Assembly (NCBI GenBank): GCA_001600095.1
Contig: BCIX01000001.1
Coordinates: 1,736,001-1,800,000, forward strand
Source of the DNA: Bullera alba
Lineage: Eukaryota; Basidiomycota; Tremellomycetes; Tremellales; Bulleraceae
Length of the DNA: 64,000 bases
Direction: 5' to 3'
Shown here: one piece after another, positions 19,976 to 54,500 of the stretch
Position numbering within the stretch: position 1 is the first letter of the stretch
How the letters are laid out: every line of letters starts with the position of its first letter
Program-made: the position numbers and the translations under genes
Notes under the pieces: model-generated
What the model was told of the DNA's origin: nothing
What the model saw: the letters and a program-made list of their open reading frames with translations, nothing else
Database searches by the model: none

Positions 19976-20526
19976 ATGGTACGTGAGGGCTTTAATGCAC
20001 CGTCCTGCTGGTCACCGGAGGACGCGTCAACGCAAAGGAAATCGCGCTGACCTAGTGTTTTTATTTCAACTGTTCGCTAATCTGACAACCTTTGTCCGAC
20101 GAATAGCCCAAAGCCGCCCCCGCCCAGAAGTCTGCCGCTGGCAAGACCCTCCACAAGTTCTACGTCGACTACTCTGTCCCCGTCGCCGACAACGTCTTTG
20201 ACGCCGCTTCCTTCGAGAAGTTCCTCCACGACCGAATCAAGGTCGACGGAAAGCCAGGACAGCTCGGTGACGCCGTCCAGATCAGCAAAGAGGGCAACAA
20301 GCTCGTGTTGACTTCCAACATCCCCTTCTCGAAGAGGTACCTCAAGGTGGGTCACGCGTGGGAATGAAACCTGCGTCATTGTTGACCTTGTTTCCAGTAC
20401 CTAACCAAGAAGCACTTGAAGAAGAACAACTTCGAGAACTTCCTCCGAGTCGTCGCCACCTCCAAGGACACCTACTCTCTCCGATACTTCAAGGTCGACC
20501 AGGCCGACGAGGAGGAGGAGGAGTAA
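19976..20526 (+). CDS. RPL22: 60S ribosomal protein eL22
   Basis: Exon 1 is only the ATG (19976-19978). A 128-nt intron (GTACGT...GAATAG) leads to exon 2 (20107-20346) and exon 3 (20398-20526), giving 123 residues. The protein starts [23 protein letters not shown], contains [14 protein letters not shown] and [15 protein letters not shown], and ends in an acidic DEEEEE tail. These are clear eL22 signatures, and the length is normal. It is a structural protein of the large subunit near the exit tunnel. RPL22 lies inside the fused MAT locus of C. neoformans; here it is about 14 kb from the homeodomain pair. I saw no clear C/D or H/ACA snoRNA motif in the first intron. Confidence 0.96.
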
Positions 20527-22569: not shown

Positions 22570-25443
22570 ATGGACGACTTTCACGAGCGGTATCTCGCTC
22601 AACAACCTAATCAAGTCCCCATGTCATCGTTCCCCTCCGCCACCGCCACCCTCTCCACGGTCGCATCCGCCGTCACGACAAGTCTTCGCAGTGTCGCATC
22701 GGGGCATGGGGGACATGGCGATGGAGGAAAGCCAAGGAAACGTCATCAAGCTGCCGTGTACTATCTGTCAAGAGTGTCATGGTTGTTGTTCGCGGCGATC
22801 ATCCTTGTGTTGGCGATACATCACCTCATCGTGACGCGACAACAGAAGAACGAGCTCAAGCGGAGGATAGCACTCGCCACCTCCCCACCCAAAGGCTCAA
22901 GGGACAGAATACCAGACTCCGACACGCCCTATACCGATGACGAGACGGACGACACGAGTAGCATCAGCAGTATTGGAAAGAGGGAGAGGAGGCGGACCAA
23001 CGACAGCAGCGGGCTGGGTGATATTGAGAGCCAGTCAAATCGGAGGGGATCAAGATGGGCCTGGTGGTTGGCCCAACAGAGGAATTGGCTATACCTCAAG
23101 ATGATGCCAAAGTGGCTTTATGGCCCCGAAACTCTGGCCGACGGGTTCTGGACTCTCACCTACTGCGTCATCCTCTGCAGTTTCGCTGCATACTCAAGTG
23201 AGTGCCCTCACTCTGCCGCGTAGACCCGGATTAATCTTCTCAGTCATCGAGGCAACCGAGTACAAGCTACTGGTGTTCGCAAACGCGCTTGGTGTTCTCG
23301 TACGTTCTGCCTCTCAATTAATTAGGACAAACTGCTGACACCCGGCACAGGCATTCAGTCAAGTGCCCATGATCATCATCCTCATCCAGAAGAACAACCC
23401 GATATCCGCCTTGACGGGCATTACATATCAAAAGCTCAACTACCTCCATCGAGCGAGCTCACGAGCGTGCTTGTTATTCAGTTGGATTCATGTTGTCATT
23501 TGGTTCTTCCCATTGTGAGCTTAGCTGCTCGATCCGTCCAAGTGATTATAGAGCTAATACCCGAGTGCAGATGGGAGCGGACGGATGTCAACTATTTCCT
23601 AGTCGGCTGGATCGTTTGGGTGAGTGAATACTTCCGAGACTGTGTACGGACTAGTGACTGATTGGAACAGGGCTACGTCGCTATCTTCGGCTTCACGCTG
23701 CTCTGGATTACCAGCTTCCGATTGATCAGGCGGATAGCGTTCGAATTCTTCATGGTATCGCATATAGTCGGAACGCTGTGAGTAGACCAGCTCTAGGTCA
23801 AATGCTCGTCGGCTGATTTCCTTCACCAGTCTTTTCATCGTTGGGGGCATCTTCCACTGGTGGAGGTTGGCATACTGGCTATGGGTAAGCCAGCTGCAAA
23901 CTTTATCATCGCATCTCAGCTGACAATTTATGAACCTCAGCCTGCTCTCGCCATCTATGCTTTCGACCGTGCTCTTAGATTTGTCAAGCTCCTTCGGATC
24001 AATCCGCCTCGCTCATTGCGCTTTCTCGGATCAAGAAGCGCACCTGAGCAAGCTGGACAATGTGAGATCACCCTTTTGGATAATGAGAACATGCTGCTCG
24101 TAGCAAAGCGCCCGGGACTGCACTGGACTCCTGGCCAGCATTTGTGAGCTGTTTTTGGCGTTCCTTTCCGCAAAGACAAAGCTGATCACCGCACCTAGCT
24201 ACATGTCCGTGCCTACCGTTCACGCGTCGCCTCATGAGGGCCATCCGTTTTCCATTGCGAATGTGCCAAATGAGCGGGACGAGCTAGTCTTCTTGATCCG
24301 AGTGCATGGAGGTGAGCTTGATATTCTTCTCGAGGCAGCACTTAAAGCTCACGAACCGATTCTTACAGGTCTGACCAAGCGCCTACGTGATGCTCTCAAG
24401 CAGGAAGTCACAGCGGACATCCCTGTCTACTTCGATGGGCCATATGGTTCCTCTCACAGCATGGCTCACTATTCCACGGTGATCCTCGTGGCTGGTGGAA
24501 CTGGTATCACCTTCCTCTCGTCCCACCTGCTCGGCCTGCTGGCACCCTCGGTAGCTCCAACACGCAGGCACATACACCTCATCTGGCACATCCGACACGC
24601 TAGCGACACTGTCTGGCTCGCGAGCCTGCTCAACGAAGCCGCCGAACGACTGAAAGACTTCCCCTTGACCCGCCTTACCCTCGACGTACATGTCACCAAA
24701 TCCGGCAGAGGCAACGAACCCTCGCAGCCCTTCAGCCTGACAGAGCGTATAGCCGAGACGGTAGCTCCGAGACGATTCAGTCGAAACTCGCCTAGAATGG
24801 ACCACAGCGAGTTGCCCAGTGCAATTGGTAGCGACAACGGCGACGAGGTGATCGAAGACGATGAGGACACCGAAAGCGTCATGATGGACAGTCTGAGGAG
24901 TTCGCGGCGGAACAGCTCGGGCGCCAATCCCACCGAAGACAGCAGGATAGTTCGAGGCAGAGACCTGGAGAACGGAGTGAGGGAGAGACTGCTCAGCATG
25001 GGGATGGATCGACGAACCACCGACTTTGCAGATTTACACCGACTACGACACGGTACCGAGCAGGACGGTCAAGAAGAACGGGAGACCCAATACCTCCTTC
25101 CGCCTCGTCCATCAGTGCGCTTCGACATGACTCAAGAGGGCGAAGACGACGATACATTCGGCTTGACACGCGACGCTGCCAATCTGCTCGTGTGGAAGAA
25201 AGGCCGGGCGGACTTGGTCGAAGTGCTGGAAAACGACCTGGAGTGTACCGACGGAAAGGTCATGGTCACTGGTGAGTTGCGATTGAGTGGTGAAGTCGGA
25301 TTGTAGCTGACTTTCGTCCAGTCTGCGGCCCAGTCCAACTCTTGCATGCGACGAGGAAAGCGGTCAAATTGGTGTCGACTCCAGAACGAGCATTGCGAGG
25401 TCAACCACAAGTCGAGTTCTTCGAAGAGACACTTGGATCGTAG
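22570..25443 (+). CDS. Ferric-chelate reductase (FRE family)
   Basis: Ten exons (first 22570-23197, last 25322-25443) give 799 residues if the 57-nt intron at 24312-24368 is removed. The ferric reductase transmembrane domain has two His pairs spaced for bis-haem binding: LHRASSR with SWIHVVIW, and VSHIVGTLLF with IFHWW. The FAD-binding motif is HPFSIANVP. The NAD(P)-binding domain starts ILVAGGTGITFLSSHL and ends in CGPVQLLHATRKAV. A ~150-residue acidic Ser-rich insertion sits between the two halves of the NAD(P) domain. Such enzymes reduce extracellular Fe(III) or Fe(III)-siderophores with cytosolic NADPH. Upstream GATA boxes match those of the two siderophore permeases. An NADPH oxidase was considered, but the long insertion and overall layout fit FRE better. 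Confidence 0.9.
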
Positions 25444-29923: not shown

Positions 29924-32058
29924 TCATAGCTGCACGCCAAGGAGCTCCTTGATCTGAACCAATTGACCCGTCTTGAAACTCTCGTTGGCGGCAAGACCGA
30001 CAGCCATGGCCAAAGCCCCGTCGACCTGGTTGGCCGACAACCTGGACACGGCCGTTGACGAGGGTTTCTGACCTGGGCGAGGGCCGAAGATCTGGTCCAA
30101 CATGGCGTCGTCACCACCACCTGGAGTGAAGGTCAGCTGTTTTCCGACATCCGGGGCTATACACAGCTTGTAGGATTGGGCAGAAGTATCTCAGGACACT
30201 CACCGTGACCGCCGGTTCCCTCCTCGAAGGGAACGTCTCGACTCGTCTCCCATAGAGGATGCAGCTTGATGCTCTTCCTGGACTCATTTGGCAAAGCCTT
30301 CTCTCCGTGAACAAAGTCGGAAGCATCTCCTCCCTTCTTGGTAGGGTTTCGATGCGAGCTTTCGACGACTTCCAGCTCGAGTCGACCTTTATCACCGTTG
30401 ATCATGACCCTGTATCCCTCCCAAGGCTGTGAAGAGGATTGACCGCGTGGATGGTAGTAAGTGGGTCAGGATGGCAGAGGACGTAGAGAGAAGAGGAAGG
30501 TAGACGAGTCAGCTTTCTAGGTCTAGGAAGCAAAGAGCTGGACAGCTGACTGACCGAGTATGCAGTCAAGTGGTAGGTCATGGTAGCCCCATTGTCATAC
30601 TTGACCAACACTGACATGTCATCTTCGATGGTGATGTCCTCTGCGAAGACGTTCATATCTCGGTGGTAGTTGTCTATGAAGAGTCAGCTTAGCGCCACGC
30701 CAGAGACATGCGACAAATTCCAGCTGAAAGACCACAAACACTCACCGACGTGCTCCGCGTCTGTATACAACGCCTTCAGATCCTCCTGATCCTCAAGGTG
30801 GATGGCGAATGGATCGTCAGCGGCCTCGGCACTGCCACTGGCTCGATAGTAGTCTCGAGCCCAGCCCGACTTCTTGCCGTTCTCTTTGCCGTAGAAAGCG
30901 AGGGAGCCCATTCCGAAGACGGACTGAGGCTTGGCGTTGATCCAGAAGTTGACTAGGTCGAACTGTAGCAAGTGGTCAGCTGTTGACGCCTACAAAATCG
31001 AAACAGCAGACTTACATGATGCGAGGACTTGTGCACCATGAGACCTGAAGGTGGTGTCAGCTTGATTCAAGGCGCGAGGATGCATTGATTAGCTCACCGC
31101 CAGATTTGTCCTTATACCTGTGCCACCTCCTGAAGTAGTCGGCACCATGGACGGTGTCCTGAGGGAACATCAGCCGGTGATCAGGCCTCCATTGATCCTG
31201 TTGCAGCTCACCAAAAGCCACTCGAAGTGGACCGACTTGACATTTCCGATAGCACCGGAAGCGACGACCTCCTCAACCTTCCAGTGAACGGGGTTGTATC
31301 GGTAGTTGAAGAGGACTAACGGGGGGGTTCAGCTTGGATGTTCGAAGACATATATGAAGCTGATGGTTGAGTGAGATGGCTCACCCTGCAGAGATCCTTT
31401 GGTCTCATCGACGGCTTTCAGGATTTCCTGGCATTTGGCGACGTCCCTGCACAAGTCAGTCAGCTGGTTGCTTTTCGATTTTTCAAGAGCTGTACCTGAC
31501 GCATGGTACCGCAGACGAGTGCAAGTAGAAGTGAGATCACTCACGTAGTCATGGGCTTCTCCGTCAAGACTCGGATACCAGCCTTAAGAGCTGGGATGAT
31601 GAACTCGTGATGCGTGGCGTCGACGGTAGTGACGACCAGGACATCAAGCTTCTCATCCTTGAGCATCTTGGCGAAATCAGCCTGTGGAATGGATCAGCTC
31701 GTACTGTAACATGGGACTGAGAAAATCTGTATGATGTCCTCCAAGAGCAACTCACAGATGCATACTCCTTGGCAGGAGGCTGGCCCAGCTCTTTGAGCAG
31801 ACCTTGATGGTGCTTCATTCGCTCAGAGTTGACATCACATAGCGAGACGATAGTGGAGTCTGGTCTGGCGGCAACTGCTCGGACGTAGAGCTGCAAAGGT
31901 ATCAGCCCGGTCCTGTCCATGGGACGATTGGGAAGCTGCAGAGCTCTGCCCGTATTGGCGCAAGAGCCATTGGCGTCGGCGCCCAGACTCACTCTTGCTC
32001 GGTGGCCGGTACCGACGACACCGACTCGTCCGCCGACTTGAGTGGTTCCAGTGGTCAT
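29924..32058 (-). CDS. Gfo/Idh/MocA-family NAD(P)-dependent oxidoreductase
   Basis: Multi-exon gene on the minus strand; the first exon is 32058-31993, the second 31890-31756, and the stop is at 29924-29926. The protein starts [22 protein letters not shown], a Rossmann GxGxxxR-like motif, followed by [17 protein letters not shown] holds the catalytic EKP lysine. Downstream, [39 protein letters not shown] and [27 protein letters not shown] fit the C-terminal domain of large fungal and bacterial family members. The C-terminus is ELLGVQL. An upstream in-frame extension exists, but 32058 starts directly before the Rossmann fold. The substrate (sugar or related) is unknown. It sits about 730 bp downstream of the HD1 stop, on the same strand. 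Confidence 0.88.
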
Positions 32059-32787
32059 AATTCTGTTCTCACTGTATTCTGGGGTGAATATCAAAGCAGA
32101 CAAGGCAGGGAAGGGATGTAGAAGGAGAACATCACCCTCGCCCGAGGATATTGCAAGTTGTTGAACGCACTGGCCGACCTCCACCGGCGATTTACGGACC
32201 GGAAAGAGGTCACGGAGACAGCGGGTCATAGCGGCCCGGGCGGAGGGTTGTTCCAGCGAGCCAGGACTGCGTTGTAGGCTTGCAGTGCTATTGCTGCTCC
32301 TACCGTATGCTGGGAGGGGACTGACAGAGACTGCGATGACAGCGAGCAAGACAAGTTGCATAAATCATGAGATACGAAGAAGTCAGAGCCCCCGACAGAT
32401 GCTGCGCAACTTCTGACAAAGTGGCAGTAAGACACGCGAGTCTGATAGGCTGGAAAGTACGGAGAAGAGTGGTTTCGCAGAGCCGCAGACGTTAAACCGA
32501 TCCATTCGTTTATCGTTACAACTGATTTACTGAGCCAAAGATAAAAACAAGCAGTATCGAAGCACACCAATGGGTATGACTAGCACGTAAATATATGTAT
32601 GTCAGGCCCCGAGCCTTTGAGAAGATCGAAGGAGCCGATGATCCCAAGTTTCGATTCGAGCGGAGATGGAATCAACTCCCGCGTCTGCCAAACTCCCTCC
32701 ATCTCCGATCTCCTCCTCCTATGTAACGCGACTCGTCTTCGTTCCAACTACCACCATCTACCACTATCTCTTCGACGATCCCCTCGA
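32059..32787. other. intergenic region between the oxidoreductase start and the HD1 stop
   Basis: No gene was recognised in 729 bp. It should contain the oxidoreductase promoter and the HD1 3' UTR. A minus-strand frame runs through it without family resemblance. Confidence 0.45.
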
Positions 32788-34679
32788 CTACTGGCTCCAT
32801 TGACCGACGGGCGACCTAAACTCCCACTGTTGGGGCATCTGCCATGTATTCGCCTGATGGACCTGCATGTGCGGCAACAACGGCATCGGCGCGTTCGACG
32901 ACCACATTCCACCGTTGTCACCGTGACCCGTCGGCTGACCTTGGGGAGATTGCTGAGGATGACCCTGTCCGAGATGAGGATACTGCGTTGGTGGGGCGTA
33001 GGAGTACATGACCTGCTGGGGTTGCGGGTAGATCGGGTACGAGGATACGGCGTGACCGACGTGGAAGCCCATTTGCTGAGGAGGGTATCCATGTGCGAAG
33101 TACGCTGGAGGAGTTGGTCGACCACCGTAGTTGGGGTCGGTGACCCATTGAGGAAGGTCGCCTTGTGGTGAGTAGACCTGGGCGGAGTGCTTGAATCGCT
33201 GTTCGCGCTCGGCCGAGGTCGCCATCTCAGTTGGAAGTTCGCGCTTGGTACCACCATTCAAACCACCATAGCCACTGGACATGGTGCCGCTGTATTGGTA
33301 CGGCTTGCACTCGAAGTCCTTGCTCAAGACGGAAGAGGTGGATGACATCGACGACGACGAGGCCGATCGAAGGGATACCGCAGGGGAAATGTCTGTGCGC
33401 ATGGCCGAGGTGGCTGTGGCGAGGGACGAGATCGATGACATGGTGGAGAGTGAGCCCGCTGGGGCATGTTGAGTGAGTGGTGGGGTGAGCTCTCGAAGGG
33501 TCTCGGACTTGATGTAGTCGTCCTCGACGTGTTGCTCGTCTTCGGTGAGTCTTGCCTTTTTGGCAGCCGGTTTGGCCAATGCAGTGAGCTAAGCGCATAG
33601 TCAGCTGGATGCTCAAGGACCTGAGATAGGGCAGTTGACTCCTGGCAGAGAGATGGTGACGAAGCGATGAAGGGTCGAAAGGAGGGGCGGTTGATTGAAC
33701 CTTGAAGTGGTGGTTTCGGGCGGCGACGACCAATGAAGTGGTCGTCTGGACGCGCCAAAGGTGCGGTGGACTATGGGAGATGTGGTAGAGGCGATGTGAA
33801 GAGGGTTGGATGATGATGAAGAGGCGTGGGAACGACGATCACGATCGAATAACTTACCTCTTTGACCCAGTCGCCGACTCGCTCCTCCTCCCTACGCTCC
33901 AGGTACGCCTTCATCTTCTCCACCGCCTCCCTCACGCCCTTCCTCTTCTCCTGGCCCGACTCGACCTTCTCGATGAGGACTCGCATCGCGTCTCGGGAAC
34001 CATTGGCCCAGTTGTCTTTGATGTCGGTCCAGCCGGCCCGTCGCCGCCAATTGGTCATGTCGCTGTCGATCTTTGATCGAGGGATACCGCTGAGTTCGGA
34101 CAGCGAGTCTTTCTCGACGGCGCTGGGGTATGGGTTGGCGAGATGTTGGAGAAACCATTCGCGTATGTGGTCGGTGGGCTTCGCCCCACTAGGCTGGTAG
34201 GCATGACCTGTCTTCTGATCATGCTGATCGCGGCCAGGATCGGTATGAGCAAGACCATCGGTTTCCTGCATTATGTTCATAGGCCGTCTCTTTCTGCTTC
34301 GAGCTGGGACAGTATCGTCTCCAATATCTGAGTATGGTGAGCTCTAATCTATCAAGCCAATCGAACAAGAGGGAGACACACCGTGATGCTCCGACGAGAC
34401 TATGTGGCGGAACTCTGAAGACAGCTTCTCCAGTTGATTATCATGGTCCTCCTCCGCACGTAGGGCTTGTTCGGCAAGCACGCCAATGTTCGTGGCCAAT
34501 CTGGCTGCCAGTCTGAGAATATCGGTGGAGATCTGGCCATTTGCTGTTTGGGCCCGGATGAGCTCTCCCATCTTCTGCCATGCTTTCACACTTCCTTCGA
34601 GATTTGCGCCTTTGGAGAAATCGTTGATGACGGTCTCGTACAAGCACATCAATTCTTGAGCAGTTGCGGCTGTAGACAT
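32788..34679 (-). CDS. HD1 homeodomain mating-type transcription factor (Sxi1/bE-like)
   Basis: Three exons (34679-34382, 34327-33858, 33588-32788) give 522 residues. Residues 1-99 are helical (MSTAATAQELMCLYETVIND...) and correspond to the N-terminal specificity/dimerisation region of HD1 proteins. RSRKRRP near 110 is a likely nuclear signal. The homeodomain spans about 149-199 (HIREWFLQHLANPYPS... IDSDMTNWRRRAGW). NPYPS marks the TALE-like three-residue extension of HD1 proteins. The helix-3 Asn (192) and Arg (194) are kept, but the usual WF pair before them is DM. The tail is Ser-, Pro-, Tyr- and Gln-rich. It is divergent from the HD2 gene across 250 bp, the standard arrangement of basidiomycete MAT-HD loci. 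HD1 heterodimerises with HD2 from a compatible partner. Confidence 0.9.
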
Positions 34680-34929
34680 GCTGGAAGGAGTGGCGAGGAT
34701 AGTGAGTCTTGATACGCGATGTAGCAAAGCAGCAAAGCAATCTTATAGAGCCGCTGGAGAAGAGTGTTGTGAAACCCGAGAGCGGGAGACAAAAAGATTT
34801 CTCGACGAAAACGAAACACGTCTCCCAGCCGAGTTCTTGTTTGACCACATCCTACGTTGCGACCTGCAAACCTGATCTTGTTCACCTCCATTGCTCTCTC
34901 ATCCTCACACTCTATTCACCTCCAGCAGC
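34680..34929. promoter_or_regulatory. bidirectional promoter between HD1 and HD2
   Basis: Exactly 250 bp separate the two start codons. No obvious TATA box is visible. Divergent HD1/HD2 promoters of this kind are shared in basidiomycete MAT loci. The first codons on both sides lie in regions expected to be highly polymorphic between mating types. Confidence 0.75.
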
Positions 34930-37441
34930 ATGAAGCCTGCCCACCGCACTGCATATCATTCGCTGCTCGCCAGCAGTCTTCAAGTCGAGCGAATTTGCCA
35001 ACCTGAAAATGGCCTACCACTCGGTAGGCTCATTGTCATCAACCCAGCACTCAACCTGGTCCTGGTGGATCAGCACTTCGATCTACCCGACGGCACATCT
35101 TCCATCCCTGGAATAGGAACCCTCAAGCCGCGGATTGAATCATTGTTGGCGGACTATGTGCGAAGGGTGAAGCGGGATGTGCAGGTCTCGTGTGCGAATG
35201 AGCTCAGACGGACGCTATCTCTGGAAGAACACACAGATATCAGCGACGACAAGATTCAGCAAGCTATCCAGATTAGCTTCGAACGACTCTATCATGAGCT
35301 GGTGACCAGGGCGAAGACTGTCGTTACGGAACGACTTAGGTCATTCGCTGAGCAGAACAGAAAGACCGCTGGTTTCTCATCGGTGAGTTTAGGACCTGCG
35401 CATGATTGAGTAACATCATCATTGACTGTAAGCGCAGGGCTCCACAGCCATATTGGAAGCTGCATTCGACCGTTCTCAAAGCCTGTCGCAACGGGAATGC
35501 TCCATCGTGGCTCAAGCTGCTGGCATCACGCATCAACAGGTGAGGGCACGCTCTTTCCTTGCCGTCTCACTGTACTGACTCTGCATAGGTCCGGACATGG
35601 GTACGTCGTCTCTATACTCTCAGCCGCATCGCCACTATCCGCTTGTACTGCTACACTGCCACACCCTCTACTCGACGACCCCTTCACCCCCTCTTCATCT
35701 CCCGGTTTTTGATGGTGTCAAGATGGTCATTGCGTATTGTTCATCGGCCTTTCCCCTCTCGTTTCACCCTTTGAACCCGAAATTCAAAAGGGCTCGGACC
35801 CGTTCCTGGGTGATCGACCCTTGTTTCATCCATCAAACTCCCGGTCTCATTGTCATTTTTACCCCTTTCGGCAATTATCCCATTCCACCCCTCCTCACAC
35901 ACACACACACACACACACACCGCTTCACCCGCTTTGACCATCGCGCTCCATTTTGATGGTGACTGCGAGAGTCTAACCCTTTTGTCTTCATTACGCGTCT
36001 GTGGCAGTGCCAGTGTGGCAGTCGGCGAGAGTGGCAGTGTGGCACTTCGACATGATCCGCCGCTGAGCGCTGACCATGCTATTAGTTCCAGAACAGGAGG
36101 AACAGGAAGACGAAAGGTCGCAGGACGGCTTCAACTTCAGCACTCCCGACTCAACCGGCCGATCAAGCGATCCCAGCAACTCGACGAGTAATATCCCTTC
36201 CGAAGAGGGCGACAAAGACCGCCTCGTCTATCACACCGACACCTGCTTCTACCGCTGCTGCCGCTGCCAAGAATGGCCGAGTCATCAGGAGCCTGCCCAA
36301 GCGAGGTGGCCAAGCCGCGCAAGCTAATGCAGTCTCGCCAACCTCGAGCCTATCGTCGATGTCGACCGTAGGATCGATCCCTCCTGCTGGAGGCTTCACC
36401 TCGCCTATGAACCAGAACAACGGGTGTCAACCAACTATCTCGTTCGGCGGATCGACTGTCCCCTACATCCAGACCACGCCGACTCAGTATGCTGAGTACA
36501 ACCAATCGCAATCTCAGTCCAATCCCTCGCTCAACCTCGTTCCTCCTACTCCCGGACACGACTGGTACACCCAGGGCAACTTCAGCCAGAGTCCAGTGGA
36601 GATGACTCCTTCGTCCGAGTTCCCCAGCTTTCAACTCGCTATGGGAAACGACAATGCTGCCCAGCTAGACGAGAGCGCGATCGACCCGACTCTGGCTCAT
36701 ACCCCTTCGTGGTCATCGCCCACCAGCTCCGACTGGTCCAACTTCTCCTTCTCCCAAGGCTCCGACCCCACCCCTGAGCAGTACTCTAAGTTCAGGCTGG
36801 ACGAGATGGTTGCCAAGTCGGAAGAGGAGATGCTGTTCCAATTGAAAGAATGGCTCGATACGTCTTTCGAAGTCGACGCGGCTCCCTCATCGATGGAATT
36901 GGGCGGAGAACTGGATATTGACTTCAGTTCGGATATCCTAGACGGGATCATGGAGCAGAATACCGATGTGGGAATGTTCGACTTCGACAACGCTATGGAG
37001 CTGGCTGCTATCGAGGGAGAACCACGACCCGTCCCCGTTTCGATCTCCGGGAGGAGCACGCCATCACTGGTCAACTCAGCCTCGACCGGTGATCTCTCCA
37101 CCCAGGCTTCTACCGAGAGCTTCTCATATCAGTCGGTCGGATATCCCTCGATTGCTGTGTACCCGACTTCCGTCGCCGCAGCCAGTGGCAGCATCATCGA
37201 CCCATCCCTACAGGCCGAGTCTGCTCAAATCGACCAATCTGCCCAGTCTCACTTGGCACCCACACAGATCCCATCGCAGGCCGTGGCTCAAGCTGTGGAG
37301 AGCAGTGGATGGGCTCAAGGCGCCTTGCCATTCGCCGACTTCGGGTACAAGGTTGATCAGGGTGCATCCCAAGGCAGCGGCTGGAGCGAGGGACAGGATC
37401 TCGTCAACGGCTGGGATCAGAGGATGACTACGACTGCGTGA
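34930..37441 (+). CDS. HD2 homeodomain mating-type transcription factor (Sxi2/bW-like)
   Basis: Four phase-0 exons (34930-35382, 35438-35539, 35589-35600, 36086-37441) encode 640 residues. Residues 1-150 form the N-terminal variable/dimerisation part. The homeodomain (about 140-200) reads STAILEAAFDRSQSLSQREC... THQQVRTW, then FQNRRNRKTKGRR, the canonical WFQNRR recognition helix. Exon 3 is a 12-nt micro-exon (VRTW), and a 485-nt intron containing a CA repeat separates W189 from F190. Downstream come a Lys/Arg-rich region and a long Ser/Gln/acidic tail (DWSNFSFSQGSDPTPEQY, ELDIDFSSDILDG), probably transactivating. An in-frame ATG 39 nt upstream (34891) reads only simple Ser/Thr sequence, so 34930 is preferred. 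It pairs with HD1 to control sexual development. Confidence 0.92.
35896..35920. repeat. (CA)12 microsatellite in the long HD2 intron
   Basis: An uninterrupted CA dinucleotide run of about 25 nt inside the 485-nt intron that splits the HD2 recognition helix. It is likely length-polymorphic. Confidence 0.9.
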
Positions 37442-37883: not shown

Positions 37884-40643
37884 CTACTCCTGCTTCCCCA
37901 GATCTCCCGTGTACACCGTCATCAACGACTTGTTGTGCATCCCAATTGCGAGGTGCTCCCCATCGTCCCTCCACTGCATTGTCATCTGGGAACATCGGGT
38001 CAGCGCTTCATCTCGAGGCTCCGTGTGATTCGGTTACACTCACCATCATTGGCTTCTCCCTGGATGCCTGCTTGCCAGCGTCTTCCTCGATCTCCAGCTC
38101 TTTGACCCGTTTGCCAGTCTGCCCAATTGTCAGCTCATGGCTTGGTAGCTGTCTGGAGCGTTTGATACTCACTTCGATATCCCATATGACCAGCTTTCCG
38201 TTCCATCCGCCACCGGCAACGAGGTTCTTCGCAGCGGGAGAGAAGCATATCGAGCCAGTACCGGTTTCCAGACCAGATAGTGTGTACAGCGTCTGCCCTG
38301 ATAACGCGTCGAAGAGCTTCACCGTGGAATCCTGTCCACCACTACAAGGGAGTCAGTCTCCATTACAGCTGAAGCGGGTATCGTGCACAGAAGGCAGCTG
38401 TAGGACTTACGCAGCGAGGATCATTCGGCCGTCTTTACAGCTTGGACTCCATTCTAACGTGTCCATCCGCCTGTTGACGCTCCTGGTCACCACATTCAAC
38501 CGATTCACACAGTGGTCGATCCCGATGACAGCACCATTGCCCTGGAAGTAATCGTCCTTCTCACTGCCTCCGGGTCCATTGGCAATAGCACCGGCATTTG
38601 ACATCTTGGTCGGTGATGACGAGCGCGAAGTCGTTCCTCGGTCTTCAGGGTACGAAGGCAGTTTCCACACCATACACGTTCCGTCGTCCGACACACTGGC
38701 AAGCAGTCTTTTCTCCCATTCTTTTGACGCTCCACCGAGTTTGTTGATGGTGGAAGCAGTGGGAGACCACTTCAACTTGGTCACATCGTCGGTATGTCCC
38801 TTGAAGGTGTATCGCGGACGTTTGTCATTCGTCCTGAAGATGAAGATAGTATGGTCGTGGCCTCCAGAAGCAAAGACGTCGTCGTCCAACCAGTCAATGT
38901 CGGTCACTTTTCCTTTATGACTCTCAAAGCTCCTCAACATCGGTCGTTGATACACATTTCCAATTGACCAGAGGCATATCGTGAAGTCGTCCTTGGCTGT
39001 CAGGATGAACGATCCGGAGGGCGAGAACTTCAGGGCACTGATAGCTCCTCGGCCGTAGGACATGATGCCCTGCATCGATCCTGACGGGGTGAAGAGCCGT
39101 CCAACTCCATCTTGGCAGCCTGATACACAATCAGCTCTGTCGACTTAAGGGATTTCATAGCTGCAACTAGTGATAGTACACCACTCACCGGTCGCAAAGA
39201 ATGTCCCATCCGGGTGCCATGCCAACGCCGTCACACCCTTCTTCGAGCTTTCTATGCTTTTGTGAGGAATCGGAGTTTGCCTCAACAACGACAATGCGGA
39301 CCGTTCATCCTTCTCGTCAAAGTCCCATAGTCTCGCCGTACCATCGCTCGAGCCCGTCGACAAGTTCAACCGATTCTGCGGGTTCCAAGCCACACACGAG
39401 ACCATATCCCGGTGTTCGACAAACGTGGCGATATGATCCTCTGAGATGATATGTGCTGGAGTTTCCACCTTCTTTTCTTGAGATGCAGTGGATTTACGCC
39501 CATTCCGACTCGGTTTCTCCGGTTCATCCTGTTCAGACTCGGTATCCGGTATCCTACCCTTCAACCGAGGTGTCGACTTCATAGGGCTTTTCGACCTCCT
39601 ATCGGGTTTCTCCTCGACGCCGAGTTTGCTGGAATCGGCTTTTCCATTCGGACCGGATTTCGCTTTCGACCGTCTTGACTCTTTCGGCTCGTCGTCAACG
39701 TCCATATCGTCGCCGTCATCCTTATCTCTTTCTGCACGACCTTTCCCTTGGTCATCCTTTTCGAGATCGCTGGCCATGGCGGTAGCGGTGTCCGATATTC
39801 TGGCCCGTTTCTTGTCTTTATCCCGTTTCTTCGATTTCGTCGTAAGCACTGGCGATTTGGCCCTGGTTGATGCTGCGGGCGATGCCTCTCGCGAATCAGA
39901 AGCATCGGATTCTCTCCTCGACTTCCTTTTGCCCTTGACCGGGTCGACAGTGCTGGTTTCGGCTTGACTGGTCGTGCTGATGTTTATCGCTTGACCACTG
40001 GATCGATTGGTCCTCGATGGTCCCGCTTCTGGCGCCTCTGGACCTGGAGGGAATACTTCGGGTCTTTTGGGCGGAGGTGGACTGACTCGCAAACTGGGTG
40101 GAAGAGGCAGCGTGGGGTTGTTCGATGAGGAAGGGAATGAGGGTGGGCAGGCATGTGGTATGAGTAGGTGGAAAGGATTTGGACAGCTTGGTTTAAATGG
40201 CTCCCCATTGGCTCCGATGTGTCTTTCGACCTCTTCCCAGCGTAAAGACTTCCATAGTCTCCTGACTAGTTCACCCCGTTCTATCCGGCCTTCGCTCTTG
40301 CCAAAACCATCAGGTTGCCTCGATGGCCCCGAAGAGCCATTGGCTTGCTTACCCTTGGAGTTGGGCGCGGTAGGGGTGGGGAAAGAAGGGTTGTAGTGCT
40401 TGAATAGCGAGGTCGAGGGCAGGTTGGATTCGGAAAGAAGGGTGAAGGCGGTATGGGTGAAATTGGATTCGAGGAGGTACTACAGCAGATCATATTCAGC
40501 TCGAAATTCTCGAAATGAAACTGTCGGGAGCTGGAGGGACTCCCACTCACGAGGTATATCAGTATGTTGATCTCAACACTTGACAATTCCACTCTGGATT
40601 CCTCCTCGTCCACCTCCATCTCCATGTTAACGTCGTCTGCCAT
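37884..40643 (-). CDS. LisH + WD40 protein, TBL1/Sif2-like corepressor subunit
   Basis: Minus-strand multi-exon gene with start codon at 40643-40641 and stop TAG at 37886-37884. The N-terminus (MADDVNMEMEV, then INILIYL across an intron to YLLESNFTHTAFTLLSESNL) is a LisH motif used for oligomerisation. A long Lys/Glu/Ser-rich linker follows (KSRRESDASDSREASP...). The C-terminal half is a WD40 propeller: HRDMVSCVAWNPQNRLNLSTGSSDGTARLWDF, KKGVTALAWHPDGTFFATG, AISALKFSPSGSFILTAKDDFTICLWSI, HTDDVTKLKWSP and LLASVSDDGTCMVWKL. This layout matches TBL1/TBLR1 and yeast Sif2, subunits of the NCoR/Set3 histone deacetylase complexes. Other LisH-WD40 proteins cannot be fully excluded. It ends in KQE after YTGDLG. 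Confidence 0.8.
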
Positions 40644-51566: not shown

Positions 51567-54500
51567 ATGTTTAGCAAGTCATCCGCCAATAACAACAACA
51601 ACACCTCGTACGCATTCTCACAACCCGCCGCTGTCAATTCATCCACCGCCGTCCGCAAACAGGAGAACGACACTTTCTACAACCCTCTTCCCGCGCCGAG
51701 ATCATCCCAGGACCAATCTAGAGCTCAACCATCGGTCACGGGTCAATCGGCAAATCCATTCACGGATCCGAGAAGGGATTACGTCTCACGTACTCCCTCG
51801 CCTCACGCGTCCAACCCGCTTCTATCCTCCCAACTCTCAGACTCTTCCTCTCCTTCCTCTTCGCAGTTTCACAACTCGTCAAACATGCCTTCAGCTTCTC
51901 GATACGCCCCTAGAGCCGGCACTGGGATGCCACAAAGAGGCGAATCTCAGAGCGCTTTACTAGGCGGGAACGGTCAGGTGAGTTCACGTTCCCACGTTCT
52001 TTTTCGTGGTTTGCACAGCCCGTTTTCCGATCCGCGTATCACACTTCCCATCGATCTATGCTTCGAGAGACTTGATTATCGTCTACATGACTTGAAAGAT
52101 CCACAATCCGATCTCCAGCTCGGACCCTAGTCGGGACCGAAATAGTACGAGGATGGCGCGCCAAGAGGACGAAAAGGATCATCCATTTCAACGCGGGGCT
52201 ATGTTGTTTCCCGTCAATCTGTCCCCGTCTCGATCTGGCAGAGAGGATTGGGAAGCATACTGGAAGGTCCTGTGATTCTTGTGCGCGGTTCTCTCACTTC
52301 CTGCCCATTATTTCTGCCATAGTGTCTTCTTGCACATCTCCCTTGTCATGCCTCGCAACCCTGTGTTTCAGGATGGACCTCCTCCACTGCCCCCTAAAAC
52401 GCAGCCCGGACCAGCCCTTCCACCATTTTCCTTCCTGCCTTTGAGTCACGAACCAAAAGTGCTTCAGTCCTAGAAGACCATCCATAAACAACAGGCTGAC
52501 TCTATCTAGTCCTCGAACGCCCGGAAATATGGTCCTACAGCCTCCGCCGCACCCATCGGTGCCAGCGCAGCCCTGCTTTCCTCCCCATCACAGTCATCGT
52601 CGGATAAGGCAGGCATCAACAACCAGGATGGATCGGCTTGGGGATCGGGCATGGACATGATGAGCCCGGAGGCGGATGACTACCTGCACAACCCGGACCC
52701 CAAGCGGGATAGACGAGTGAGTTGCGCCGGCATTGCACAAACGAAAATTGCAGCGGTCACTAACGCATCAAAGGGTGATCACGGTGGAACAATCTTCACT
52801 TCTAGAGGTTTGATGAACATCGGCTGTTTGTTCATTCTCCTGCTCGGTGTCATCTGTTTGTTCGCCGGATACCCCATCATCACATTCTACACCCGACACA
52901 ACCTGAGCACAAATGGTGCCTACAACCTTGGTGGTATCAACTCTACAGGACAGGTTCCCCTCATCAGCAATTTCCCCTCGCCCATCGATCCTGATACGCC
53001 ACCTGAGGCTTACACCAGACAAGGCTTCGATGATGGACATACCTACAACCTGGTCTTCTCGGACGAGTTCAACAAAGACGGCAGGTAGGTCGATCAACCA
53101 AGGGTAGCCTGAACAGTGCAGCTGACATCACGCGTAGAACCTTCTTCCCTGGTGATGACCCATACTGGACAGCAGTTGACATCCACTACTGGCCGACCGG
53201 GTGAGCGATCCTAGGCCTACGCTGCTTAAGGTCACCAGCTAACGCATCTTCAGTGATCTTGAGTGGTACGATCCATCCGCTGTGACTACCAAAGGAGGAA
53301 ACCTTGTCATCACTCAGACGCAGGAGCCAATACACGACCTGAACTTCAAATCTGGTATGCTGCAGTCATGGAATCAGATGTGCTTCCAGTACTCTGTCTA
53401 CTTCGAAGTCCGATTGTCCCTTCCAGGAACACCGGAAGTGGGAGGTTTCTGGCCTGGTGTGTGGATGATGGGAAACTTGGGCAGACCCGGTTACGGAGCC
53501 ACAACCGAGGGTACTTGGCCATACACCTATGACAGTTGCGATGTTGGAACTCTGGCGAATCAGACGCTGGCGGATGGATCTGGACCCGAAGCCGCTTTGA
53601 CCACTGGAGCGAACGGAGGACCACTCTCGTACCTACCCGGACAGAGACTTTCCGCTTGTACATGTGCTGGAGAAGACCACCCAGGACCCGACCACACCTA
53701 CGGTCGAGCTTCGCCAGAAATCGATGCTATTGAGGTGAGTTGCGCTATCCGATACTGGGAGGCTTTGGCTGATATCTGTGCTAGGCCCAAATTGACCTAC
53801 GACTGCCTCGAGGAGAGTTGTCACAGTCGAATCAGATTGCACCATTCGACGACTACTACCAGTACAAAAACGGCACCAACGATGTGATCCGATACGATAC
53901 CACTGTCACGCACTGGAATACGTACCTTGGTGGTAGCTACCAGCAGGCCGTCTCTGGTTTGACTTACATCGACAACTCGGAGTACGAGTTGACCAATGGC
54001 GCCTTCGGTGTTCACGGTGAGTGTGCTTGAATCGGAGTTGTTACGAGAGGCTGACTCAGTATAGGCTTCGAGTACTTCTCCAACCCGAACGACCGAAACG
54101 CAGGCTACATTACCTGGCTCGCCGACGGAAAGAAGTCGTGGACGATGCACGCATCCGCTACTGGACCCAACCCAGTCACCGGTGTCGGGCAGCGGTTGGT
54201 CAGTGAGGAGCCAATGGCTATGGTGAGTGTGGCGCTTCTCCAGTTCAGAGAAGTGAATTGACGCAAAGCAGATCATCAACTTTGGAGCCTCGAACAATTT
54301 CCAAACTGTCAACCTGAATCAATTGACCTATCCCGCTCACTTCCTCATCGACTACGTGCGAGTCTACCAGAGACCCGATGTTGGAAAGATGGGATGTGAC
54401 CCTGCGGACCGACCCACGGCGGACTACATCGCTAGACACAGGCCTGCCTATGACAATGCCAACTTCACCACTTGGGCCGAGGCTGGATACACGTTCCCCG

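Follow-up and report, generated by a model that had tools for sequence, protein, structure and literature searches.

A probable HD mating-type locus with full-length HD1 and HD2 genes in a fungus of tetrapolar-type layout

In a stretch of 64,000 nucleotides of contig BCIX01000001.1 (the window), two homeodomain genes of different classes, HD1 (SXI1-type, minus strand) and HD2 (SXI2-type, plus strand), are divergently transcribed between positions 32788 and 37441, with 250 bp separating their start codons. One HD1 gene facing one HD2 gene is the arrangement of the basidiomycete homeodomain (HD) mating-type locus of the SXI1/SXI2 type, and we conclude that the pair is very probably such a locus, in a fungus whose HD and pheromone/receptor (P/R) loci are unlinked. 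The host is most likely a member of the Tremellales, because the nearest named relatives of the two HD proteins belong there. An original prediction, made from the sequence of the window, had described head-to-head homeodomain genes 250 bp apart as a mating-type (MAT) HD locus. Coordinates, orientation and gap proved correct, and the identity of the locus is borne out by the resemblance of its products to Sxi1 and Sxi2, by RPL22 lying nearby and by a P/R-type cluster on another contig. The locus is a well-kept example of an already known kind, with nothing new in type.

Two full-length homeodomain genes

HD1 encodes 522 amino acids in three exons and HD2 640 amino acids in four (Table 1). Both frames are open over their full length, as had been claimed, and the possibility of a broken or one-gene locus was rejected on this basis. 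The joins had also been described as in phase, and re-splicing agrees: all five introns run from GT to AG and preserve the reading frame. By eye, a CTGAC or TTGAC motif lies near the 3' end of four of them, the exception being HD1 intron 1. The homeodomain of HD1 has the length of the TALE class, with three extra residues between helices 1 and 2, and that of HD2 is of typical length. Comparing both products with protein and profile collections, as the original prediction had suggested, matched HD1 to Sxi1 and Homeobox_KN, and HD2 to Sxi2 and Homeodomain.

Against PF05920 (Homeobox_KN), HD1 scores 44 bits (cut-off 24) with all 40 profile positions covered, and the NPYPS motif previously noted in it is indeed present, the above-threshold PF05920 match being of TALE type. 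Similarity to Ustilago_mating is sub-threshold (22.4 bits, cut-off 28.1). Across the 19.4-Mb genome, two of four candidates scored against PF05920, the second with 24.2 bits for a cut-off of 24, and a genome search with the HD1 protein returned this locus only: no other clear HD1-type gene turned up in the genome. The protein search yielded 16 relatives, all with Homeobox_KN, and the eight named ones come from Naematelia encephala, Kockovaella imperatae, Tremella mesenterica, Kwoniella mangroviensis and Kwoniella heveanensis (four Sxi1 entries). Several relatives share, by eye, a conserved C-terminal ending that backs the 3' end of the gene. Structure prediction of HD1 exon 1 gave three helices (residues 3-22, 28-46 and 52-97) with confidence (mean predicted local distance difference test, pLDDT, 94.5), suggesting that this exon holds one variable helical domain. 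For exon 2, a three-helix homeodomain is predicted, followed by three more helices, mostly with high confidence.

HD2 scores 41.1 bits against PF00046 (Homeodomain; cut-off 22.9). Its canonical WFQNRRNR helix, reported in the original prediction, appears only after splicing over a micro-exon and a 485-bp intron: VRTW lies on the 12-nt exon and FQNRRNR opens exon 4. The splicing of such a short exon is supported by the alignment, since QVRTWFQN is contiguous in six relatives. HD2 was missed in the six-frame Pfam scan of the genome, probably because its homeobox is split. A protein search with HD2 retrieved six proteins, all with a homeodomain and including K. heveanensis Sxi2 and proteins of Saitozyma, Kwoniella and Cryptococcus. 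In a multiple alignment, HD2 and its relatives agree in the homeodomain and in several short motifs downstream of it; one sequence (P0017) lacks most of the N-terminal part. The 3' end of HD2 has weaker support, from an LPF motif that relatives have in common near the end (by eye). Among sequence matches in the PDB, DUX4 came first and yeast MATa1 was also found.

Allele-like divergence and the P/R-type cluster

One relative of HD1, P0001, has a sequence that reads through both HD1 introns. HD1 of the window is identical to P0001 at 47 of 94 aligned residues in exon 1 and at 15 of 45 in the linker, compared to 62 of 63 in the homeodomain and 42 of 44 after it. Between the intron-2 read-through of P0001 and intron 2 of the window there are two matching stretches (35 of 48 residues and 15 of 24), which lie in different window frames; because these matches are local, setting them against exon 1 as a whole somewhat favours the intron. 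On these counts the coding N-terminus of HD1 appears less conserved than the matched intron-2 stretches, suggesting selection for diversity. As a yardstick we used the four K. heveanensis Sxi1 entries, whose six pairs share 23-31 identical residues of 95-100 in the N-terminal part and 103-107 of 110 from the homeodomain onward. Judged by sequence, the pattern between HD1 and P0001 is that of mating-type alleles, whether P0001 comes from the same or from a sister species. That P0001 is a sister-species orthologue rather than an allele has, in our estimate, slightly less than an even chance; it is compatible with a mating-type locus, as divergent alleles common to both species would give an identical picture. 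Against simple orthology, the homeodomain and the matched intron-2 stretches are better kept than exon 1, and an even clock therefore fails for P0001.

By analogy with related species, the most likely role of the locus is that of a non-self switch, in which N-terminal domains from different alleles pair. The single HD1 and HD2 proteins of a haploid cell would be unable to act together. Once the cell has fused with a partner of another allele, HD1 of one parent would pair with HD2 of the other via their variable N-terminal helical regions, and the heterodimer, binding DNA with both homeodomains, would switch on the sexual programme. Heteroallelic dimerisation and a role after fusion are thus taken over from related species. 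Work on Cryptococcus amylolentus showed that, following cell fusion, a single heteroallelic Sxi1-Sxi2 pair is both required and enough; AlphaFold also predicted homoallelic dimers there, with lower confidence (PMC13059729), so that the switch may involve more than pairing.

The HD pair lies at 1.77 Mb of contig C1 (8.0 Mb long), while the P/R-type genes are on contig C2: STE3 at 674-675 kb, a pheromone-like gene beside it, and STE12 at 676 kb. A STE20-like PBD match is found at 660 kb of the same contig. HD and P/R are thus on different contigs and the layout is tetrapolar-type; a fused bipolar locus was rejected, given that STE3 sits on a different contig. The two contigs are likely separate chromosomes, and if C2 joined the right end of C1, more than 6 Mb would still separate HD from P/R. 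The original prediction had taken the intact pair as a sign of a tetrapolar or HD-paired system. The P/R-type cluster on the other contig agrees with such a system, but the intact pair is expected rather than notable, because paired HD genes are described in tetrapolar Cryptococcus and Kwoniella as well as in Naematelia and Filobasidium. For Cryptococcus and Kwoniella, compact paired HD loci are described as the normal tetrapolar state (PMC12510652).

In the pheromone-like gene, the repeat PVN[DE]ERDPWRTGMSPMCVIA occurs three times in tandem, and every copy ends in a CAAX-like CVIA. It was revealed by a CAAX scan of 40 kb of C2 only, which also listed chance open reading frames (ORFs). A genome search with its sequence gave no second copy, though an unlike pheromone gene would escape such a search. 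In red yeasts, pheromone peptides in tandem have been described (PMC3236058), and the excerpts obtained in a literature search held no report of tandem pheromone precursors in Tremellomycetes. On C2 there is also a homeodomain match of 29.4 bits (C2:786344-786499, minus strand), about 110 kb from STE3. A second STE3-like receptor gene, which we assume to be perhaps CPR2-like, stands alone at C4:1548677-1549225 (plus strand), away from the P/R-type cluster.

We considered whether HD and P/R could lie far apart on a single chromosome (a pseudobipolar layout), as described for K. europaea (PMC12510652). The size of C1 (8.0 of 19.4 Mb) would allow for it, and within the 1,500 bases inspected at each contig end C1 has a telomere only at its start and C2 has none; yet the two loci are on different contigs, and we regard this layout as unlikely. 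We likewise consider it improbable that the locus is intact in an asexual or self-fertile species, with the pair kept for other roles or recently freed from selection. Red yeasts do retain sex determinants without known sexual stages (PMC3236058), but here both HD1 and HD2 frames are full-length, the HD1 tail is conserved, STE3 is accompanied by a pheromone-like gene in a P/R-type cluster, and the N-terminus of HD1 diverges from P0001 more than the matched intron stretches do. A chance head-to-head pair of ordinary, non-MAT homeobox genes was rejected as next to impossible: although the genome has other homeodomain genes (five PF00046 matches in the six-frame search), HD1 is one of only two PF05920 matches genome-wide and directly adjoins HD2, the relatives are named Sxi1 and Sxi2, and RPL22 is nearby.

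Besides the contig ends, several observations weigh against reading the pair as an HD mating-type locus with unlinked P/R. The choice of acceptor in HD1, modelled with introns of 54 and 269 nt, is uncertain at both: the stretches scanned hold three in-frame acceptors for intron 1 and two for intron 2, which affects at most 8 and 11 residues, respectively. HD2 shares low identity with its relatives (25-33%, in alignments covering 37-96% of the query). Foldseek with the HD1 exon-2 model placed Pbx1 and other TALE homeodomains on top, which speaks for the reading, but gave no match at E <0.001 (best 0.04). A high N-terminal divergence had been predicted; it is seen in HD1 against one allele-like relative, P0001, but the search with HD2 exon 1, whose query extended past the exon by a few codons of intron 1, gave no relative at all (0 of 99 candidates at E 0.01). 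P0001, the one candidate for a second allele, may come from a sister species. As for the flanks, the oxidoreductase family beside HD1 has 13 matches in the genome, and the likeness to Naematelia, RPL22 excepted, is one of gene type, in a different order.

The third helix of HD1

HD2 has the WFxNxR motif of homeodomains within WFQNRRNR, whereas HD1 of the window reads SDMTNWRRR instead. Helix 3 is S-D-[LM]-[TV]-N-[WF]-R-R-R in 17 out of 17 HD1 sequences (that of the window plus its 16 matches), a set chosen by similarity to the window, with Cryptococcus neoformans and other orders outside it. The missing motif is no argument against membership of HD1 in its class, because all 16 matches, including the four K. 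heveanensis Sxi1 entries, are also devoid of it. In homeodomains, W and F of WFxNxR belong to the core and hardly vary. This pair is absent from helix 3 of HD1, in which an aromatic residue (W or F) directly follows the conserved N, one helical turn later.

A sequence search of the PDB with the HD1 profile found Meis and Pbx first. Meis2 aligned ungapped, its counterpart of helix 3 being N-W-F-I-N-A-R-R-R, and it superposes on the HD1 exon-2 model with 0.7 A over 47 columns. A literature search for Sxi1 with WFXNXR brought up one paper, which marks the motif for Tremellomycete Sxi1 in a single place, the legend of a supplementary figure. We tentatively propose that the recognition helix of HD1 might have been rebuilt in this fungal group, so as to be packed, and perhaps to read DNA, unlike in other TALE proteins, with dimer specificity depending more on HD2; from these sequences, we see this as possible but rather doubtful.

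Neighbouring genes and published loci

Table 1. Features of the HD locus and its surroundings. Positions refer to the window unless contig C2 is indicated; CDS, coding sequence.
Feature	Position	Strand	Description
HD1 CDS	complement(32788..33588, 33858..34327, 34382..34679)	-	SXI1-type
HD1 exon 3	32788..33588	-	C-terminal tail; conserved ending MWSS..PLLPHM...W.MP..WEF, like Naematelia and Kwoniella relatives
HD1 intron 2	33589..33857	-	269 bp, GTAAGT...CTTAG
HD1 exon 2	33858..34327	-	TALE-type homeodomain (PF05920 match 34038-34157), then helical extension
HD1 intron 1	34328..34381	-	54 bp; two further in-frame acceptors possible
HD1 exon 1	34382..34679	-	variable N-terminal domain, three predicted helices, mean pLDDT 94.5
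Intergenic stretch	34680..34929	.	250 bp between both starts; presumably a shared divergent promoter region
HD2 CDS	34930..35382, 35438..35539, 35589..35600, 36086..37441	+	SXI2-type
HD2 exon 1	34930..35382	+	N-terminal region, 151 codons
HD2 exon 2	35438..35539	+	first homeodomain part, upstream of the recognition helix
HD2 exon 3	35589..35600	+	12-nt micro-exon, codes VRTW
HD2 intron 3	35601..36085	+	485 bp, within the homeobox; CA run at 35896-35919
HD2 exon 4	36086..37441	+	FQNRRNR, then long C-terminal region
RPL22 (PF01776)	20146..20520	+	sole RPL22 found in the genome; ~12 kb from HD1
Ferric reductase (FAD_binding_8 / NAD_binding_6)	24104..25303	+	HD1 side; type also near the Naematelia HD locus
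GFO_IDH_MocA oxidoreductase match	31538..31726	-	43.1 bits, two TGA inside; beside the HD1 3' end
WD40 protein, two ORFs	38410..40479	-	HD2 side
SKN1/KRE6-type gene	52510..53884	+	HD2 side; type also near the Naematelia HD locus
Pheromone-like gene	C2:672703-672924	+	74 aa, beside STE3

The flanks hold one gene characteristic of HD loci, RPL22, and the other neighbours are shared with such loci by gene type only. RPL22 is linked to the K. heveanensis pair, and in C. neoformans and C. gattii it is part of the MAT locus (PMC2873909). A PMT gene is also present on the HD2 side. Pfam was run at E 1e-4 on 30 of 47 selected window ORFs, eight of which had a match, one of them (PF00413) under its own cut-off. 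The ORF at 31567-32364, on the HD1 flank, has itself no Pfam match, and an Rfam scan of the whole window gave no match at the gathering threshold.

The closest published layouts share much with this locus. In matA of Naematelia sinensis, HD1 and HD2 are also head to head, RPL22 is associated and P/R is on another chromosome (here, another contig). An oxidoreductase, of unstated type in the source, adjoins the pair, and genes of SKN1 and ferric reductase type are near; RPL22 flanks the pair directly in that species, whereas here it is ~12 kb off and the neighbour on the HD2 side is the WD40 gene (PMC13085929). SXI1/SXI2 of K. heveanensis are likewise a divergent pair with a near-constant homeodomain and a variable N-terminus, their multi-allelism having been shown with strains, while here it rests on a single relative, P0001 (PMC2873909). 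C. amylolentus also has a two-gene HD locus unlinked to P/R, and in that species function was shown by deletion and crossing, whereas here it is inferred (PMC13059729). Filobasidium floriforme, of another order (Filobasidiales), has a divergent SXI1/SXI2 pair with divergent 5' ends in a likely tetrapolar layout (PMC9210288). The MAT locus of C. neoformans contains the same gene families but is fused to P/R, and only SXI1 or SXI2 is present per mating type, in agreement with what the original prediction had stated; here neither gene has been lost and P/R lies on a different contig (PMC6730849).

The window adds a species near named Tremellales outside Cryptococcus that retains HD1 as well as HD2 and has P/R on another contig, which fits the paired, unlinked state as the ancestral one. 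HD1 and P0001 provide a pair of alleles or sister orthologues for studies of N-terminal recognition. The altered helix 3 of HD1 and the triple-repeat pheromone-like gene offer more new ground than the locus itself.

The position of the pair also differs from that in Kwoniella, where the HD locus is mostly subtelomeric (PMC12510652): here the contig start is 1.77 Mb away. The telomere-like repeat of this genome is TTAGAGG(G), not plain TTAGGG, and is found at the starts of C1, C3 and C6 and at the ends of C3 and C6. With 8.0 Mb in a 19.4-Mb genome of seven contigs, C1 recalls the giant chromosomes that have been reported for Kwoniella.

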